A stretch of DNA of 64,000 nucleotides. It comes from Cryptosporangium minutisporangium (lineage in GTDB: Bacteria; Actinomycetota; Actinomycetes; Mycobacteriales; Cryptosporangiaceae). The notes below the pieces were generated by a model that was not told the origin of the DNA, made no database searches, and saw nothing but the letters and a program-made list of their open reading frames with translations. This document shows positions 3,851 through 53,978 of this stretch, piece by piece (the stretch's first letter is position 1; the number at the start of each line of letters is the position of its first letter). The stretch spans positions 1 through 64,000 of the forward strand of contig NZ_BAAAYN010000029.1 of NCBI RefSeq assembly GCF_039536245.1, in the 5' to 3' direction. The translations under genes were made by a program, and so were the position numbers.

Positions 3851-4615
3851 TCAGGGCTCCCGTAGGAACTCGGCCAGGACGGGCGCCAGTACGGGGGCCG
3901 CCACGGTGTGCCACTCCCCGGGAAGGCTCAGAGGCTTCGCGTTCGGAAGCAGCCGGGCCGCGGCCGCCGCCATGCCGGCGAGGTCGTCGCTGCTCCCGGC
4001 GCTGTCGAGTATCAGCGTGGGCGTCAGCACTCGGCTGAGCGTCGTCGCGTTGGTGGCCTCGCTCAACACGCTGTCGTAGACCAGTGTGTGCGCGACCGAC
4101 ACCATGGCCTCCCAGTCCGGCGTGCCGCGCATCTCCACCAGCACATCGGCGGGTACGCCGATGCTCGTCAGGAAGAACTCGACCGCGTCCACGCCGGACA
4201 GCTCGCGCAGTTTCGCGGTGAACGCCTGCTGCTCAGCGGAGTCGTCGGTGAGGTCGAGCGGAGGCTCCAACAGGGCCAGTCGACGGATGTCGAGCCCGGT
4301 CGCCGCGGCGTGCAGCCCGACCAGGCAGCCGGAGGAGAAGCCATAGAAGCAGATGGGCGTGCCGATCTCGGCGATCAGCGCGCTGAGGTCCTCGACCTCC
4401 CGGGCGGGGGTGTACGGCGGGGTGTCGGTGCTCTCGCCACGGCCCCGCCGGTCGTAGTGGTAGACGGCGAAGTCTTCGGCGAGCAGCTCGGCCAGCTCGC
4501 CGAACGGACTGTTCGCGCGGTAGTGCCCTGCGGCGTCCACGAGGACGAGCGGCGGTCCGGTGCCGACCTGCTCGTAGGCGATGCGCGTGCCGTCCCGCGA
4601 GGTGACCCAGCTCAT
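3851..4615 (-). CDS. alpha/beta hydrolase
   Basis: This is a 254-residue alpha/beta-hydrolase fold enzyme with no signal peptide, so probably cytoplasmic. The strand-turn after LVLVDAAGHYRANSPF carries the oxyanion region. The nucleophile is the serine in GFSSG (about residue 95), and the general-base histidine is in GEWHTV near residue 235. The DRRGRGES motif typical of this superfamily is present. The substrate cannot be read from sequence. It is divergent from a TetR regulator 29 bases away with a shared palindrome, so the regulator probably represses this gene. Confidence 0.85.
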   Translation of the reverse strand: MSWVTSRDGTRIAYEQVGTGPPLVLVDAAGHYRANSPFGELAELLAEDFAVYHYDRRGRGESTDTPPYTPAREVEDLSALIAEIGTPICFYGFSSGCLVGLHAAATGLDIRRLALLEPPLDLTDDSAEQQAFTAKLRELSGVDAVEFFLTSIGVPADVLVEMRGTPDWEAMVSVAHTLVYDSVLSEATNATTLSRVLTPTLILDSAGSSDDLAGMAAAAARLLPNAKPLSLPGEWHTVAAPVLAPVLAEFLREP

Positions 4616-50027: not shown

Positions 50028-51182
50028 TCAGGCGTGGGGGCCGACCGCCACGGGGCCGACCGTCAGGGTCGGCGTCCCCTCCAGGATCGCGCCGACCCGC
50101 GCGACCTCGCCATCGAGCTCGCCGAGTCGCTGCGCGGTCAGTGGGCGGAGCGGCTCCACCGTGATCGCCAGCCGGCGGCCCGACCGGCGCAGGTGCCAGA
50201 CGCCCGCGACGACGCCGTCGATCAGCAGCACCGGGTAGTTGCCCGCCTGGCTGCCGGCGAGCGCCCGCTCCCGCGCCGGGCCAGGGAACACCTGGTCCCG
50301 CGGGTGGCATCCGACCTGGTAGGCGTCGAAGTACGGCAGCAGCCGGAGCCCGCCCGGGGGCTCGTCGGCCGGTGCGGTGTCCCCGGCCACGACCCAGCCC
50401 TCGGTGCCCTCGACGTCCACCCGCTCCACCTCGTCGCCGAGCGTGCCGAACAGCGTCGTCGCCCAGCCGCGCGGCGCGTTGATCCACTGCGCGAAGTGGT
50501 GCGGCGTCGCCGGGCCGTAGCTGGTGAGGTACCAGCGGACGAGCTGCGCCAGCGCGTCCTGGCCGTCGAGCGGTGCGACGTCCGGCAGGTACCGGCGCGG
50601 GCTGGTGTAGGTGATCTTCCGCCCCCGGTTCGGGCCGAAGCACAGGACGCCGCGGTGTGCGGCGGCGCTGATCACCTGTCGCCAGCGCGGCCACATGTCT
50701 CCGAATGCCGGCATCGTCCGCTCGCCTGCCCAGGGTCCGGTGCGGGCGACCACCTCGTCGCCGAGTTCGTCGGTGGTCAGTTCGGCGTCGGCCAGCGCGT
50801 CGCCGATCGCCGCCACCACCGCGTCGGTCTCCGCGGCCGTGAAGCGGATGCCGTCCGGGAACGGGTTCGCGGCGGGCAGCGCGGAGAGCGCGGCGATCCA
50901 CACCGGAAGGTCCTCGGTCGCTAGCAGATGGACGGTGCCGCGCGGCCCGAACGTCTTGACCAGCTCGTGTTTCTCCCAGAGCGCGGCACGGACGTCCGCG
51001 CGGGTCGCACCGTCCAGGCGCAGGCCGATCGACAGCTCGGCCGCGGAGAGCACCTGCGCGTGCGCGCCACACATCGCACGCGCGGCGTCGGCCGGGCGGG
51101 CCGACGGTTGTGGGACGGTCAGCCCGTGGCGCGCGGACCGCCGCGCGTGTACCTGGGTCCAGGTCAGCTTCGGATCGCTCAT
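50028..51182 (-). CDS. AlkZ/YcaQ-like winged-helix DNA-binding protein
   Basis: This protein has 384 residues of the HTH_42 family, tandem winged helices around a beta barrel. RLDGATRADVRAALWEKHELVKTFGPRGTVHLL and FGPNRGRKITYTSPRRYLPD match the family. GAHAQVLSAAE is where AlkZ-type DNA glycosylases carry their catalytic Q-x-Q, here H-A-Q. These enzymes unhook interstrand crosslinks or remove alkylated bases; many uncharacterised members exist. It is a single gene, so the role is inferred from family. Confidence 0.8.
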   Translation of the reverse strand: MSDPKLTWTQVHARRSARHGLTVPQPSARPADAARAMCGAHAQVLSAAELSIGLRLDGATRADVRAALWEKHELVKTFGPRGTVHLLATEDLPVWIAALSALPAANPFPDGIRFTAAETDAVVAAIGDALADAELTTDELGDEVVARTGPWAGERTMPAFGDMWPRWRQVISAAAHRGVLCFGPNRGRKITYTSPRRYLPDVAPLDGQDALAQLVRWYLTSYGPATPHHFAQWINAPRGWATTLFGTLGDEVERVDVEGTEGWVVAGDTAPADEPPGGLRLLPYFDAYQVGCHPRDQVFPGPARERALAGSQAGNYPVLLIDGVVAGVWHLRRSGRRLAITVEPLRPLTAQRLGELDGEVARVGAILEGTPTLTVGPVAVGPHA

Positions 51183-51288: not shown

Positions 51289-52152
51289 GTGACGAGCGAC
51301 GAATCCCGGGCCCGCGTCGGCGAGGTAGAGCTCTGCTACGACGCCGTCGGGGAGCCGGACGCTCCGGCGATGCTGCTGATCATGGGGCTCGGGTTCCAGC
51401 TGGTCCACTGGCCGGACGAGTTCTGCCAGCAGCTGGCCGCGGCCGGGTACCGGGTGATCCGGTTCGACAACCGGGACGCCGGCCGCTCGACGCACCTGCC
51501 CGGACGCCGGTACACGCTGGACGACCTGGCCGACGACGCCGTCGGTCTGCTGGACGCGCTCGGCATCGACTCCGCGCACGTGGTGGGAGCCTCGATGGGC
51601 GGCATGGTCGCGCAGCTCGTCGCGATCCGGCATCCGGACCGGGTGCGTTCGCTGGCGTCGCTGATGTCGACCACCGGCCGTCGGGGCGCCGGGCGGACCT
51701 CCCCCCGCGTACTCCGGCACCTGTTCGGCCGGCGGCCGCGGACCGAGGACGAGGCGATCGAGCGCCGGGTGCGGGTCTTCGCCGACGTCGGCTCGACCGG
51801 CTTCGACCAGGACCTCCCGGAGCTGCGGCGGGTGACCCGGCTCGCGTTTCAGCGTGATCCGGACGGCCGGGAGGGCCGACGGCGTCAGCACCGAGCGGTG
51901 CGGGCGGCGTCCGATCGGACGGAGGCGCTGGGCGGCGTCACCGTGCCGACGGTCGTCGTGCACGGCACCGCCGACCGGATGTGCCACCAGTCGGGCGGCT
52001 GGGCCACCGCTGAGGCCGTGCCCGGGGCGCGGCTGGAGCTGATCGACGGGATGGGGCACGATCTGCCGCCGGGGGCGTGGCCGCGGATCATCGGCGCGCT
52101 CGTCGACAACGCCCGCCGCGCCGACGAGCGCCACCTCACGCCCCCTTCCTGA
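51289..52152 (+). CDS. alpha/beta hydrolase (RdmC-like)
   Basis: This protein has 287 residues from the GTG start. LLIMGLGFQLVHWPDEFCQQL holds the oxyanion region and RFDNRDAGRSTH the next turn. The nucleophile is in VGASMGGMVAQL, the acid in VVVHGTADRM and the base in IDGMGHDLPP. The sequence resembles aclacinomycin methylesterase-type esterases, a broad group in actinomycetes. The substrate is unknown. It converges on a repeat-filled intergenic region. Confidence 0.87.
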   Translation: MTSDESRARVGEVELCYDAVGEPDAPAMLLIMGLGFQLVHWPDEFCQQLAAAGYRVIRFDNRDAGRSTHLPGRRYTLDDLADDAVGLLDALGIDSAHVVGASMGGMVAQLVAIRHPDRVRSLASLMSTTGRRGAGRTSPRVLRHLFGRRPRTEDEAIERRVRVFADVGSTGFDQDLPELRRVTRLAFQRDPDGREGRRRQHRAVRAASDRTEALGGVTVPTVVVHGTADRMCHQSGGWATAEAVPGARLELIDGMGHDLPPGAWPRIIGALVDNARRADERHLTPPS

Positions 52153-52246
52153 GGCGCGGTCGCCCGGCTCGGCGCCGAAATGGGTGGGTGGTTGTCGCCG
52201 CTTCGGGGTGACCGCCGCGATGGTTGGCGCGCTTCCAGTGCCATAG

Positions 52247-52425
52247 CCCGGAAAGCGCGACGACGACACCGCGCGCCGCCCGGAAAGCGCGACAACCATG
52301 CCGCGCGGGCCCGGAAAGGGCGACACCCACGCCTCGCGCACCCCGGAAGCGCGACAACCATGCCCCGCGGTGCCCGGAAAGGGCGACATCCACGCTGCGG
52401 GTCGACCGGGAAGCGCGACATCCAT
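52247..52425. repeat. six tandem copies of a 31/32-bp repeat
   Basis: Units start at about 52247, 52279, 52310, 52342, 52373 and 52405, each opening with CCCGGAA(A)GCGCGAC or CCCGGAAAGGGCGAC. Spacing alternates 32 and 31 bases, so two units make 63 bases. The units adjoin without spacers, so this is not a CRISPR. It sits between the convergent stops at 52152 and 52652. Confidence 0.85.
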
Positions 52426-52463
52426 CAGCGGGCGGCACCTCCTTGCCGCGACCGCTGGACGAT

Positions 52464-52612
52464 GGTGGGTGGCTTTCTCGAAAAGCCGCCTCGCGGGCGC
52501 CTCGGTGACGTGGTCTTCCCGAAAATGCGCCTCACAGGACGGGTAGTGAGGTGGTCTTCCCGAAGCGGCCGGGCGGGCGCGTCGGTGACGTGGTCTTCCC
52601 GAAATCCGGCCG
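52464..52612. repeat. four copies of a roughly 40-bp repeat
   Basis: Copies begin at about 52464, 52504, 52545 and 52584 and share GTGACGTGGTCTTCCCGAAA or a close variant, followed by GC-rich variable bases (periods 40, 41, 39). This is a different sequence family from the 31/32-bp array that ends 40 bases earlier. Confidence 0.75.
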
Positions 52613-52651
52613 GCGCGCCCCGCATCGGGCGGCGCCGGCCGGATCGTCGTG

Positions 52652-53884
52652 TCAGCGGCCGGCTAGCTCCTCGGCGAACTCGCCCTCGAACGCGTCCTGC
52701 ACGACCTTCGCGCCGCCCGGCACGTTCGCCGGCCGGGAGATGAAGCTCTGCAGGCTGGGCGACCGGTGCAGCGCGAAGCTGTCGATCGGCACCAGCAGCC
52801 CGCCGGTATCGACCTGCTTCAGGCCGTTGAACGCGTCGAGCACGCCCTGGCGGGTGAGGTCGTCCTGCTCGCAGGCGGCGTCGAGCACCTGCTTCATGAT
52901 CTCGGCCATGCCGTAACCCAGCACCGCGCCCGCGCTCGGGTTCTTCGTCTCGGGATAGGCCTTCGTGTACTCGGAGTACAGGTCCGGCTGGCGGTCGAAC
53001 GTCGACACCGGAGCGGCCACGTACAGGTGGGACGTCAGCCAGGACGCGGTCGGCCCCTGCAGCAGGCCCGGCGCGAACACCGGGTTGCTGCCGAGGATCG
53101 GAACGTCCAGCCCCTGCGCCTGCGCGGCGGCGGCGACCGACGCGGTCTGCGCCGGCGCGACGGTCAGCACGATCGCGTCCACCCCGCGCGCCTTGAGCTG
53201 GCTCACCTGGGCGCTCATGTCCTGGTCGGTGGCCTTGATCTGCGCCTCGACGACCGTCAGCTTCTTCTTCCCGGCGACGAACTTGGTGCCGGCCAAGCCA
53301 GTCTCGCCGTACTCGCCCTCGAAGTAGATATGGCCGACCGTGTCGCCCTCCTTGAGCAGCTTCTGTTTGAACATGTAGTCGTAACCGTTCGCCATCTCGA
53401 CGTCGTAGGTCGCTCCTGGGACCCCGGTGCCGGGAATGTCGGTGAGCGTCTCGCCCCACGCCGACGGGAAGTTCACGATCTTGTCGGCCTCGTAGTCCGA
53501 CGCCAGCGCCGCGTTGATCGGCGAGCCGATCGTCTGCTGCATCGCCAGCACGTCCGACTTGATCGAGCTGTAGAGCTGCACGCCCTGCTGCGGGACGTAC
53601 CCGGTGTCCTGGACGTCCAGCCGGACGGTGTAGCGGTCGCAGACCTTGCGGGTCTTCCAGTACAGCGTGTTCGCGTTGGTGATGTCCTTGCCGAGTGCGG
53701 CGAAGACGCCGGTGAGGTCGGTGAGCACGCCGAGCGTGATCGTGTCGCCGTCGACGCCGACGTCGGTGGCGACCGAGCCGGAGCCCGAGCCGTTCCCGTC
53801 CTCGGCCTTGTTGCTGCAGCCGGTCAGCGCGACCGCGACCGCGGCTGCCACGGCGACCAGGCGGGTGAGGGTGGCGGTACTCAT
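52652..53884 (-). CDS. branched-chain amino-acid-type ABC substrate-binding lipoprotein
   Basis: This protein has 410 residues. The signal peptide has the lipobox VALTGCSN. The Leu/Ile/Val-binding fold starts ITLGVLTDLTGVFAALGKDITNA and includes VPQQGVQLYSSIKSDVLAMQQTIGSP. Relatives bind amino acids, amides, urea or aromatic compounds. It is the last gene of the operon, 107 bases after the livM-like gene, and the gap holds five 16-bp repeats. The ligand cannot be read from sequence. Confidence 0.9.
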   Translation of the reverse strand: MSTATLTRLVAVAAAVAVALTGCSNKAEDGNGSGSGSVATDVGVDGDTITLGVLTDLTGVFAALGKDITNANTLYWKTRKVCDRYTVRLDVQDTGYVPQQGVQLYSSIKSDVLAMQQTIGSPINAALASDYEADKIVNFPSAWGETLTDIPGTGVPGATYDVEMANGYDYMFKQKLLKEGDTVGHIYFEGEYGETGLAGTKFVAGKKKLTVVEAQIKATDQDMSAQVSQLKARGVDAIVLTVAPAQTASVAAAAQAQGLDVPILGSNPVFAPGLLQGPTASWLTSHLYVAAPVSTFDRQPDLYSEYTKAYPETKNPSAGAVLGYGMAEIMKQVLDAACEQDDLTRQGVLDAFNGLKQVDTGGLLVPIDSFALHRSPSLQSFISRPANVPGGAKVVQDAFEGEFAEELAGR

Positions 53885-53898
53885 CGGTGCCCCCTTGC

Positions 53899-53978
53899 AC
53901 TTCGGAATTGGGCGACTTCGGGATTTGGCGACTTCGGGATCGAGCTACGTCGGGATCGAGCTACGTCGGGATCGAAAG
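53899..53978. repeat. five tandem 16-bp repeats in the leader of the binding-protein gene
   Basis: The units are exactly 16 bases: ACTTCGGAATTGGGCG, ACTTCGGGATTTGGCG, ACTTCGGGATCGAGCT, ACGTCGGGATCGAGCT and ACGTCGGGATCGAAAG. They fill the gap between the livM-like gene and the binding-protein start at 53884, 14 bases away. Confidence 0.85.

Follow-up and report, generated by a model that had tools for sequence, protein, structure and literature searches.

The window, the whole 64,000-nucleotide stretch of the Cryptosporangium minutisporangium genome (G000) analysed here, encodes between positions 50028 and 56925 an AlkZ-like DNA glycosylase, an alpha/beta hydrolase and a branched-chain amino acid type ABC transporter cluster. 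The hydrolase gene (51289..52152, + strand; Pfam PF00561, E 3.2e-26) faces a convergent gene of the periplasmic-binding-protein family (52652..53884, - strand; PF13458, E 4.9e-36), which adjoins branched-chain amino acid type permease and ATPase genes. A sequence-only reading had described, between convergent genes, a tandem array of six adjoining units that alternate 32 and 31 bases. Both the convergent setting and the six units, at 52247-52424, were borne out. Of the 18 TRF rows for the window, the two that score highest are this array, one with period 32 (52246-52424, 5.7 copies, score 190) and one with period 63 (52246-52425, 2.8 copies, score 230).

As defined by a unit profile, the repeat unit comprises a conserved 20-bp core, CCCGGAAAGCGCGACAACCA, and a variable spacer of about 12 bp. 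All six cores lie on the + strand. Those of units 1 (52247..52266), 2 (52279..52298), 3 (52310..52329) and 5 (52373..52392) match the pattern exactly, and those of units 4 (52342..52360) and 6 (52406..52424) have one A fewer, with GGAA replacing GGAAA; the spacers differ by one base. Anchored on CCCGG, the units start at 52247, 52279, 52310, 52342 and 52373, then with CCGGG at 52406, and the 32/31 alternation is seen, but the unit profile gives steps of 32, 31, 31, 32 and 32. Strict alternation is thus partly an anchor effect; the commonest step across 51 arrays of this genome is 32. The GCGCGAC and GGGCGAC variants reported for the array are present, as is its 63-base double period, which fits the proposed duplication of a two-unit block, units 2-3 resembling units 4-5 in the sequence.

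The six units nevertheless form only one arm of the element, the inverted units and palindromic centre to their left having been overlooked. The array begins 58 bases before the start noted earlier and is bidirectional. Its short arm holds two inverted cores, both profile matches on the - strand: a distal one at 52189..52208 (CCCCGAAGCGGCGACAACCA on the - strand), 36 bases from the end of the hydrolase gene, and a proximal one at 52221..52240 (TGGTTGGCGCGCTTCCAGTG on the + strand). The distal unit is of a CGGCGAC subtype that occupies the distal short-arm position in 29 of 48 copies and the proximal position in 2 of 48. Between the arms lies the palindromic centre TGCCATAGCC (52239..52248, centre pattern match at 52239), whose commonest form in the family is TGCCATGGCA.

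Beyond the long arm, the + strand carries the 3' region of a longer composite form (52428..52525; nhmmer E 5.9e-10, the window copy being outside the seed set), within which lies the box TTGCCGCGACCGCTGGACGATGG (52443-52465). This region runs into a second type of array, in which the motif GGTCTTCCCGAAAA, from a second dispersed family, recurs at 41-bp steps (52475..52604, + strand). A third short repeat nearby, a 16-bp tandem array of TCGGGATCGAGCTACG at 53899-53975, stands immediately upstream of the substrate-binding protein gene. We rejected a coding repeat because a period of 32 bp is not divisible by 3; long ORFs do run across the array, and we took these for the spurious frames common in GC-rich sequence. 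No tRNA or known RNA was found at threshold in the window; Rfam gave 0 matches at gathering score there, and two far below it in 52100-52700. The segment 52180-52470 had no match in the phage or plasmid collection.

Copies and distribution of the repeat family

The genome holds many further copies, far more than chance would give. The 15-mer pattern CCCGGAAAGNGCGAC occurs exactly 38 times, compared with 0 times for its reversed form; when up to 2 mismatches are allowed the counts are 535 and 106. For the centre pattern, at up to 3 mismatches, they are 99 and 1. The unit profile above 12 bits matched 532 times, compared with once in reversed sequence, over 440,768 bases of loci from this genome, most of them picked for holding the motif. 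Over 400 kb of one contig, picked regardless of the motif, the profile above 10 bits gave 22 matches against 3 reversed, 19 of the 22 forming two arrays that both lie between convergent genes. We modelled the centre region from sequence alone, with 47 copies as input (40 from this genome and 7 from a congener, G002), and this model gave 190 matches, both strands and arm pieces counted. The matches listed resolve into at least 57 separate centre loci, of which C56:26326 and 26395 lie side by side.

The two arms differ in length. Short arms have two units in 44 of 48 copies, one in 3 and three in 1. Long arms range from 1 to 30 units, with four the commonest number (16 of 48). End modules are found in only about a third of copies: a leader-like 5' region in 18 of 48 (11 of them seeds), and the 3' region after 16 of 48, the window copy included (10 seeds), with 0 in reversed controls for both. 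Long rows of mostly identical units, about 30 at L031 (G000:C10:1-6000) and about 22 at L037 (G000:C27:101800-107800), suggest recent expansion. Several copies lie near contig ends (for example on C10, C11, C21, C27 and C56), so the repeats may break the assembly. Loci of variable unit number could be used for strain typing.

We further investigated whether the family is conserved in close relatives, and it proved to be neither unique to this locus nor confined to this species, although conservation extends to one congener and not to two others. G002 gave 27 matches with the centre-region model (best 3.8e-22), with 12 loci among the 24 matches listed, whereas G001 and G003 gave one match each (0.05 and 0.06), which we take as none. 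Several matches of a relaxed centre pattern in G002 were set aside as chance matches inside genes. The 12 G002 copies are compact: six have two units on each side, and in the other six, three of these four units score above threshold. Within 500 bases of them on either side we found no further row of units, though one copy may have a weak third unit next to it. Across the order, 29 of 298 genomes had a match at E <= 0.01, G000 and G002 included; with stricter filters, none of the 298 outside these two had a match better than 1.7e-4. On these sequence matches we treat the family as absent from other genera of the order. Titles and abstracts gave no description of such a repeat, in a search that reached a small share of the result lists.

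Placement between genes and at syntenic sites

Copies favor convergent gene pairs, and this is a trend of the family. Both neighbors were called for 47 of 51 arrays, the four with a missing neighbor being left out: 23 arrays are convergent, 20 co-directional and 4 divergent. Neighbors come from a codon-usage gene finder, and where a called ORF spans the array some of them are in doubt. For background, 400 kb of this genome contains 84 gaps that measure 200 bp or more; against these, convergent placement is in excess (23/47 versus 16/84, p 6e-4) and divergent placement in deficit (4/47 versus 29/84, p 8e-4). Against all 302 neighboring pairs the convergent excess holds (59/302 convergent, p 6e-5), while the divergent deficit is not significant (4/47 versus 59/302, p 0.07). 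Five further copies in this genome comprise 1 convergent, 3 co-directional and 1 uncalled, and the G002 copies are convergent in 5 of 12 cases and divergent in 1 of 12. No transposase or mobile-gene family recurs among 86 neighboring genes, as judged from the best 25 of 164 Pfam families. According to passages of PMC3049150, the pneumococcal BOX, RUP and SPRITE repeats share a convergent bias, read there as a mark of mobile, tolerated, parasitic elements.

We then compared 60 regions of C. minutisporangium with G002; besides the window they include 59 loci, of which a few lack an array. On the side of G002 the comparison covered 1.28 Mb of contiguous sequence, 800 kb from contig C1 and 480 kb from C6, together with the region syntenic with the window and the 12 element loci. 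Gene order is common to both species in nine regions, one of which (L038) has a single site only and no element. Around the window copy synteny extends to both sides, but in G002 another gene stands where the alpha/beta hydrolase would be, so the window offers no clean test of a filled against an empty site.

Six element loci have both flanks aligned in contiguous G002 C1, and all six sites are empty there. The bases between flanks number 334 in C. minutisporangium versus 9 in G002, 825 versus 14, 175 versus 46, 1063 versus 63, 861 versus 186 and 1122 versus 109; at three of the six (L202, L331 and L036) the difference between the species is larger than the element itself. In the 800 kb of G002 C1 the element model found a single strong locus, away from all six empty sites. 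At L208/L217 both species carry the element (446 versus 410 bases), L217 having entered the comparison because it holds one; one of the 12 G002 copies thus lies at a site shared with a copy found here. The pattern of filled and empty sites fits gain by insertion in the C. minutisporangium lineage, although the comparison is unrooted and loss by deletion in G002 could produce it as well. By eye, we recognized no target-site duplication or clean ends at the six junctions, where divergence of the flanks prevents a firm call.

Two of these loci have features of their own. The array at L037 (2333-3180) separates two divergent genes and directly precedes a TAGGAT motif and the GTG start codon of the one on the left, whereas in G002 the aligned flanks are 14 bases apart; insertion there may affect the promoter of the left gene. 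L193 carries a compact copy (3930-4104), and at the corresponding place G002 C1 has a simple GC-rich inverted repeat of about 35 bases, identified by eye.

RNA hairpin or protein-binding sites

The sequence-only reading had offered three possibilities, a terminator-like, a REP-like or a protein-binding element. As a bidirectional terminator or mRNA 3' stabilizer, the arms would pair as a long hairpin on either strand and end the transcription of both genes, which agrees with the convergent placement and with inverted arms around a palindromic centre. A mean of 17.8 of 24 inner positions can pair, with 24/24 in one copy, and RNAalifold found 4 of 14 predicted pairs changed on both sides with pairing kept; at L193, moreover, the sequence of G002 has a putative simple GC hairpin in place of the element. 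Against shuffled sequences the fold of the window copy had z values of -1.4 and -1.6, with 17 and 9 of 200 shuffles doing as well, an advantage that is slight and not clear. However, 51800-53000 holds 0 sites with a stem and T-run (shuffles, mean 0.5), the consensus fold energy over 47 centres is only -0.47 kcal/mol, and 24 of 47 arrays do not lie between convergent genes. Long arms of up to 30 units, moreover, stand opposite a short arm of about two. Complementarity between arms within the genome came to 836/1128, compared with 821.2 +- 8.8 after permutation (47 copies, one with a centre gap dropped); 278 of 5000 permutations reached the observed value, so there is no significant arm-to-arm covariation within this genome. 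Given the folds, the consensus energy, the terminator scan and the permutation test, we judge an RNA hairpin or terminator unlikely, and the suggestion of a terminator-like element is not supported.

The core itself appears constrained. Over 271 pairs of adjacent units, 9.5% of core columns differ versus 27% of spacer columns, a contrast that the profile used to choose the units, which gives more weight to the core, may have enlarged. One core base also differs between the two species as a whole. At core position 12 (the first C being 0), 170 of 187 C. minutisporangium units near the centres of 48 copies have G (13 A, 4 C), whereas 40 of 42 units from the 12 G002 copies have C (1 A, 1 T); this column was masked in the search. 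At the shared site L208/L217, four aligned units differ at this position in the same way.

Steps of 32 bp correspond to about three helical turns, which places the 20-base sites on nearly the same face of the helix. Core constraint together with 20-base sites at 32-base steps is the pattern of a protein-binding array, and on this pattern the element resembles protein-binding sites set in a row more than it does an RNA hairpin. Among the three earlier options a protein-binding element is the best, the binding itself being putative. The explanation we favor, and consider probable, is that the family is a lineage-specific small interspersed repeat, likely non-autonomous and mobile in the manner of MITEs or BOX elements, whose cores are 20-bp sites for a putative DNA-binding protein. 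Two inverted sites lie on one side of a palindromic centre, and on the other the direct sites follow one another every 32 bp. The cores would be bound by a transposase, a recombinase or a chromosome-organizing protein, which would either drive the spread of the element or select for the motif, and the long arm would grow by slippage or unequal recombination. At the window locus the element probably does nothing essential: it sits past the 3' ends of two convergent genes, where insertion would be tolerated.

The same sites could instead serve the host, as selected, non-mobile chromosomal sites for nucleoid organization, segregation or conjugation with a dedicated protein, TraB being one known design. 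The core constraint and the species-wide base, the tandem sites at 32-bp steps and the one site occupied in both species are all in keeping with such a role. We hold it to be rather improbable, since the family was not found in two of the four congeneric genomes, all six syntenic sites are empty in contiguous G002 sequence, and at least 57 copies stand against 12 in G002 among the matches listed. A further proposal, which we hold to be less likely than not, is that a species-specific protein recognizes the two-armed array of 20-bp sites and that site and protein have changed together, a core base differing between sister species even at a shared site. The species-wide base can alternatively come from separate bursts of two master copies, without a binding protein. 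If the proposal is true, the family would represent a new architecture of bacterial interspersed repeats and a natural case in which a single protein and its many dozens of sites across the chromosome have co-evolved in concert. The asymmetric architecture, the filled and empty sites and the species-wide base together should make the recognizing protein findable and site-protein co-evolution testable.

Relation to known repeat systems

As described in passages of PMC3733652, REP and BIME elements are dispersed, extragenic, palindromic and often clustered. The present family resembles them in being dispersed and intergenic, with a palindromic centre and clusters, and it is REP-like, as the sequence-only reading had suggested, only in this loose sense. 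The likeness ends at the unit, which is directional and not a hairpin, and at the transposase: the RAYT family PF01797 (Y1_Tnp) is found in 0 of 4 genus genomes versus 5 of 14 control genomes. REPs are palindromic hairpins of 20-40 bp with a GTAG or CGTC tag, whereas the unit here has a directional 20-bp core, and by eye its profile contains no GTAG tag. Passages of PMC3733652 mention CGTC-type REPs apparently without a dedicated transposase, and the absence of a RAYT is therefore insufficient on its own; it is the shape of the unit that rules out a REP. We thus reject a REP/BIME element moved by a RAYT transposase, an origin we regard as exceedingly improbable, for its directional, non-hairpin unit and the lack of PF01797 in the four genus genomes.

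The family resembles MITEs in one respect: it has dispersed copies that are present or absent at syntenic sites, the direction of change being unrooted. Its outermost units are inverted, TGGTTGTCGC...GCGACAACCA, and neither PF01797 nor the listed families of the neighboring genes pointed to an autonomous partner. The ends of transposons such as Tn7 carry several short transposase sites at set spacing, and the arms here likewise have several short, regularly spaced putative sites. In our family, however, the sites radiate from a centre with no cargo seen inside, and there is no recurrent transposase among the best 25 of 164 neighbor families.

The Streptomyces TRS motif contains CCCGGA, and so does the core of the present family. 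According to passages of PMC4170104, Streptomyces TraB recognizes TRS repeats, 8 bp long, in clt and probably also in clt-like sequences of the chromosome, and both systems thus present repeated recognition sites on an actinobacterial chromosome, but the core here is 20 bp long, bidirectional and centred on a palindrome. The BOX elements of Streptococcus pneumoniae (boxA-boxBn-boxC), as presented in passages of PMC3049150, are similar in being modular, dispersed and enriched between convergent genes, with a variable middle module and presence in only some species. BOX is predicted there to fold tightly as RNA, while the folds, the consensus energy and the arm permutation gave no stable RNA secondary structure for the element here. 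In addition, the module here is bidirectional around a palindromic centre and a putative binding site. We therefore file the element as a small interspersed repeat outside the BOX, REP and named MITE families.

The second dispersed family, whose motif follows the 3' region in the window, has its own distribution. With up to 2 mismatches, GAGGTGGNNTTCCCGAAAA has 185 sites in the C. minutisporangium genome (0 for the reversed control) and 0 sites in the three congeners. Several of these sites are divergent pairs with starts 31-34 bases apart (for example G000:C17:184422/184455 and C26:97156/97189), and this 41-bp family may therefore share the two-armed plan.
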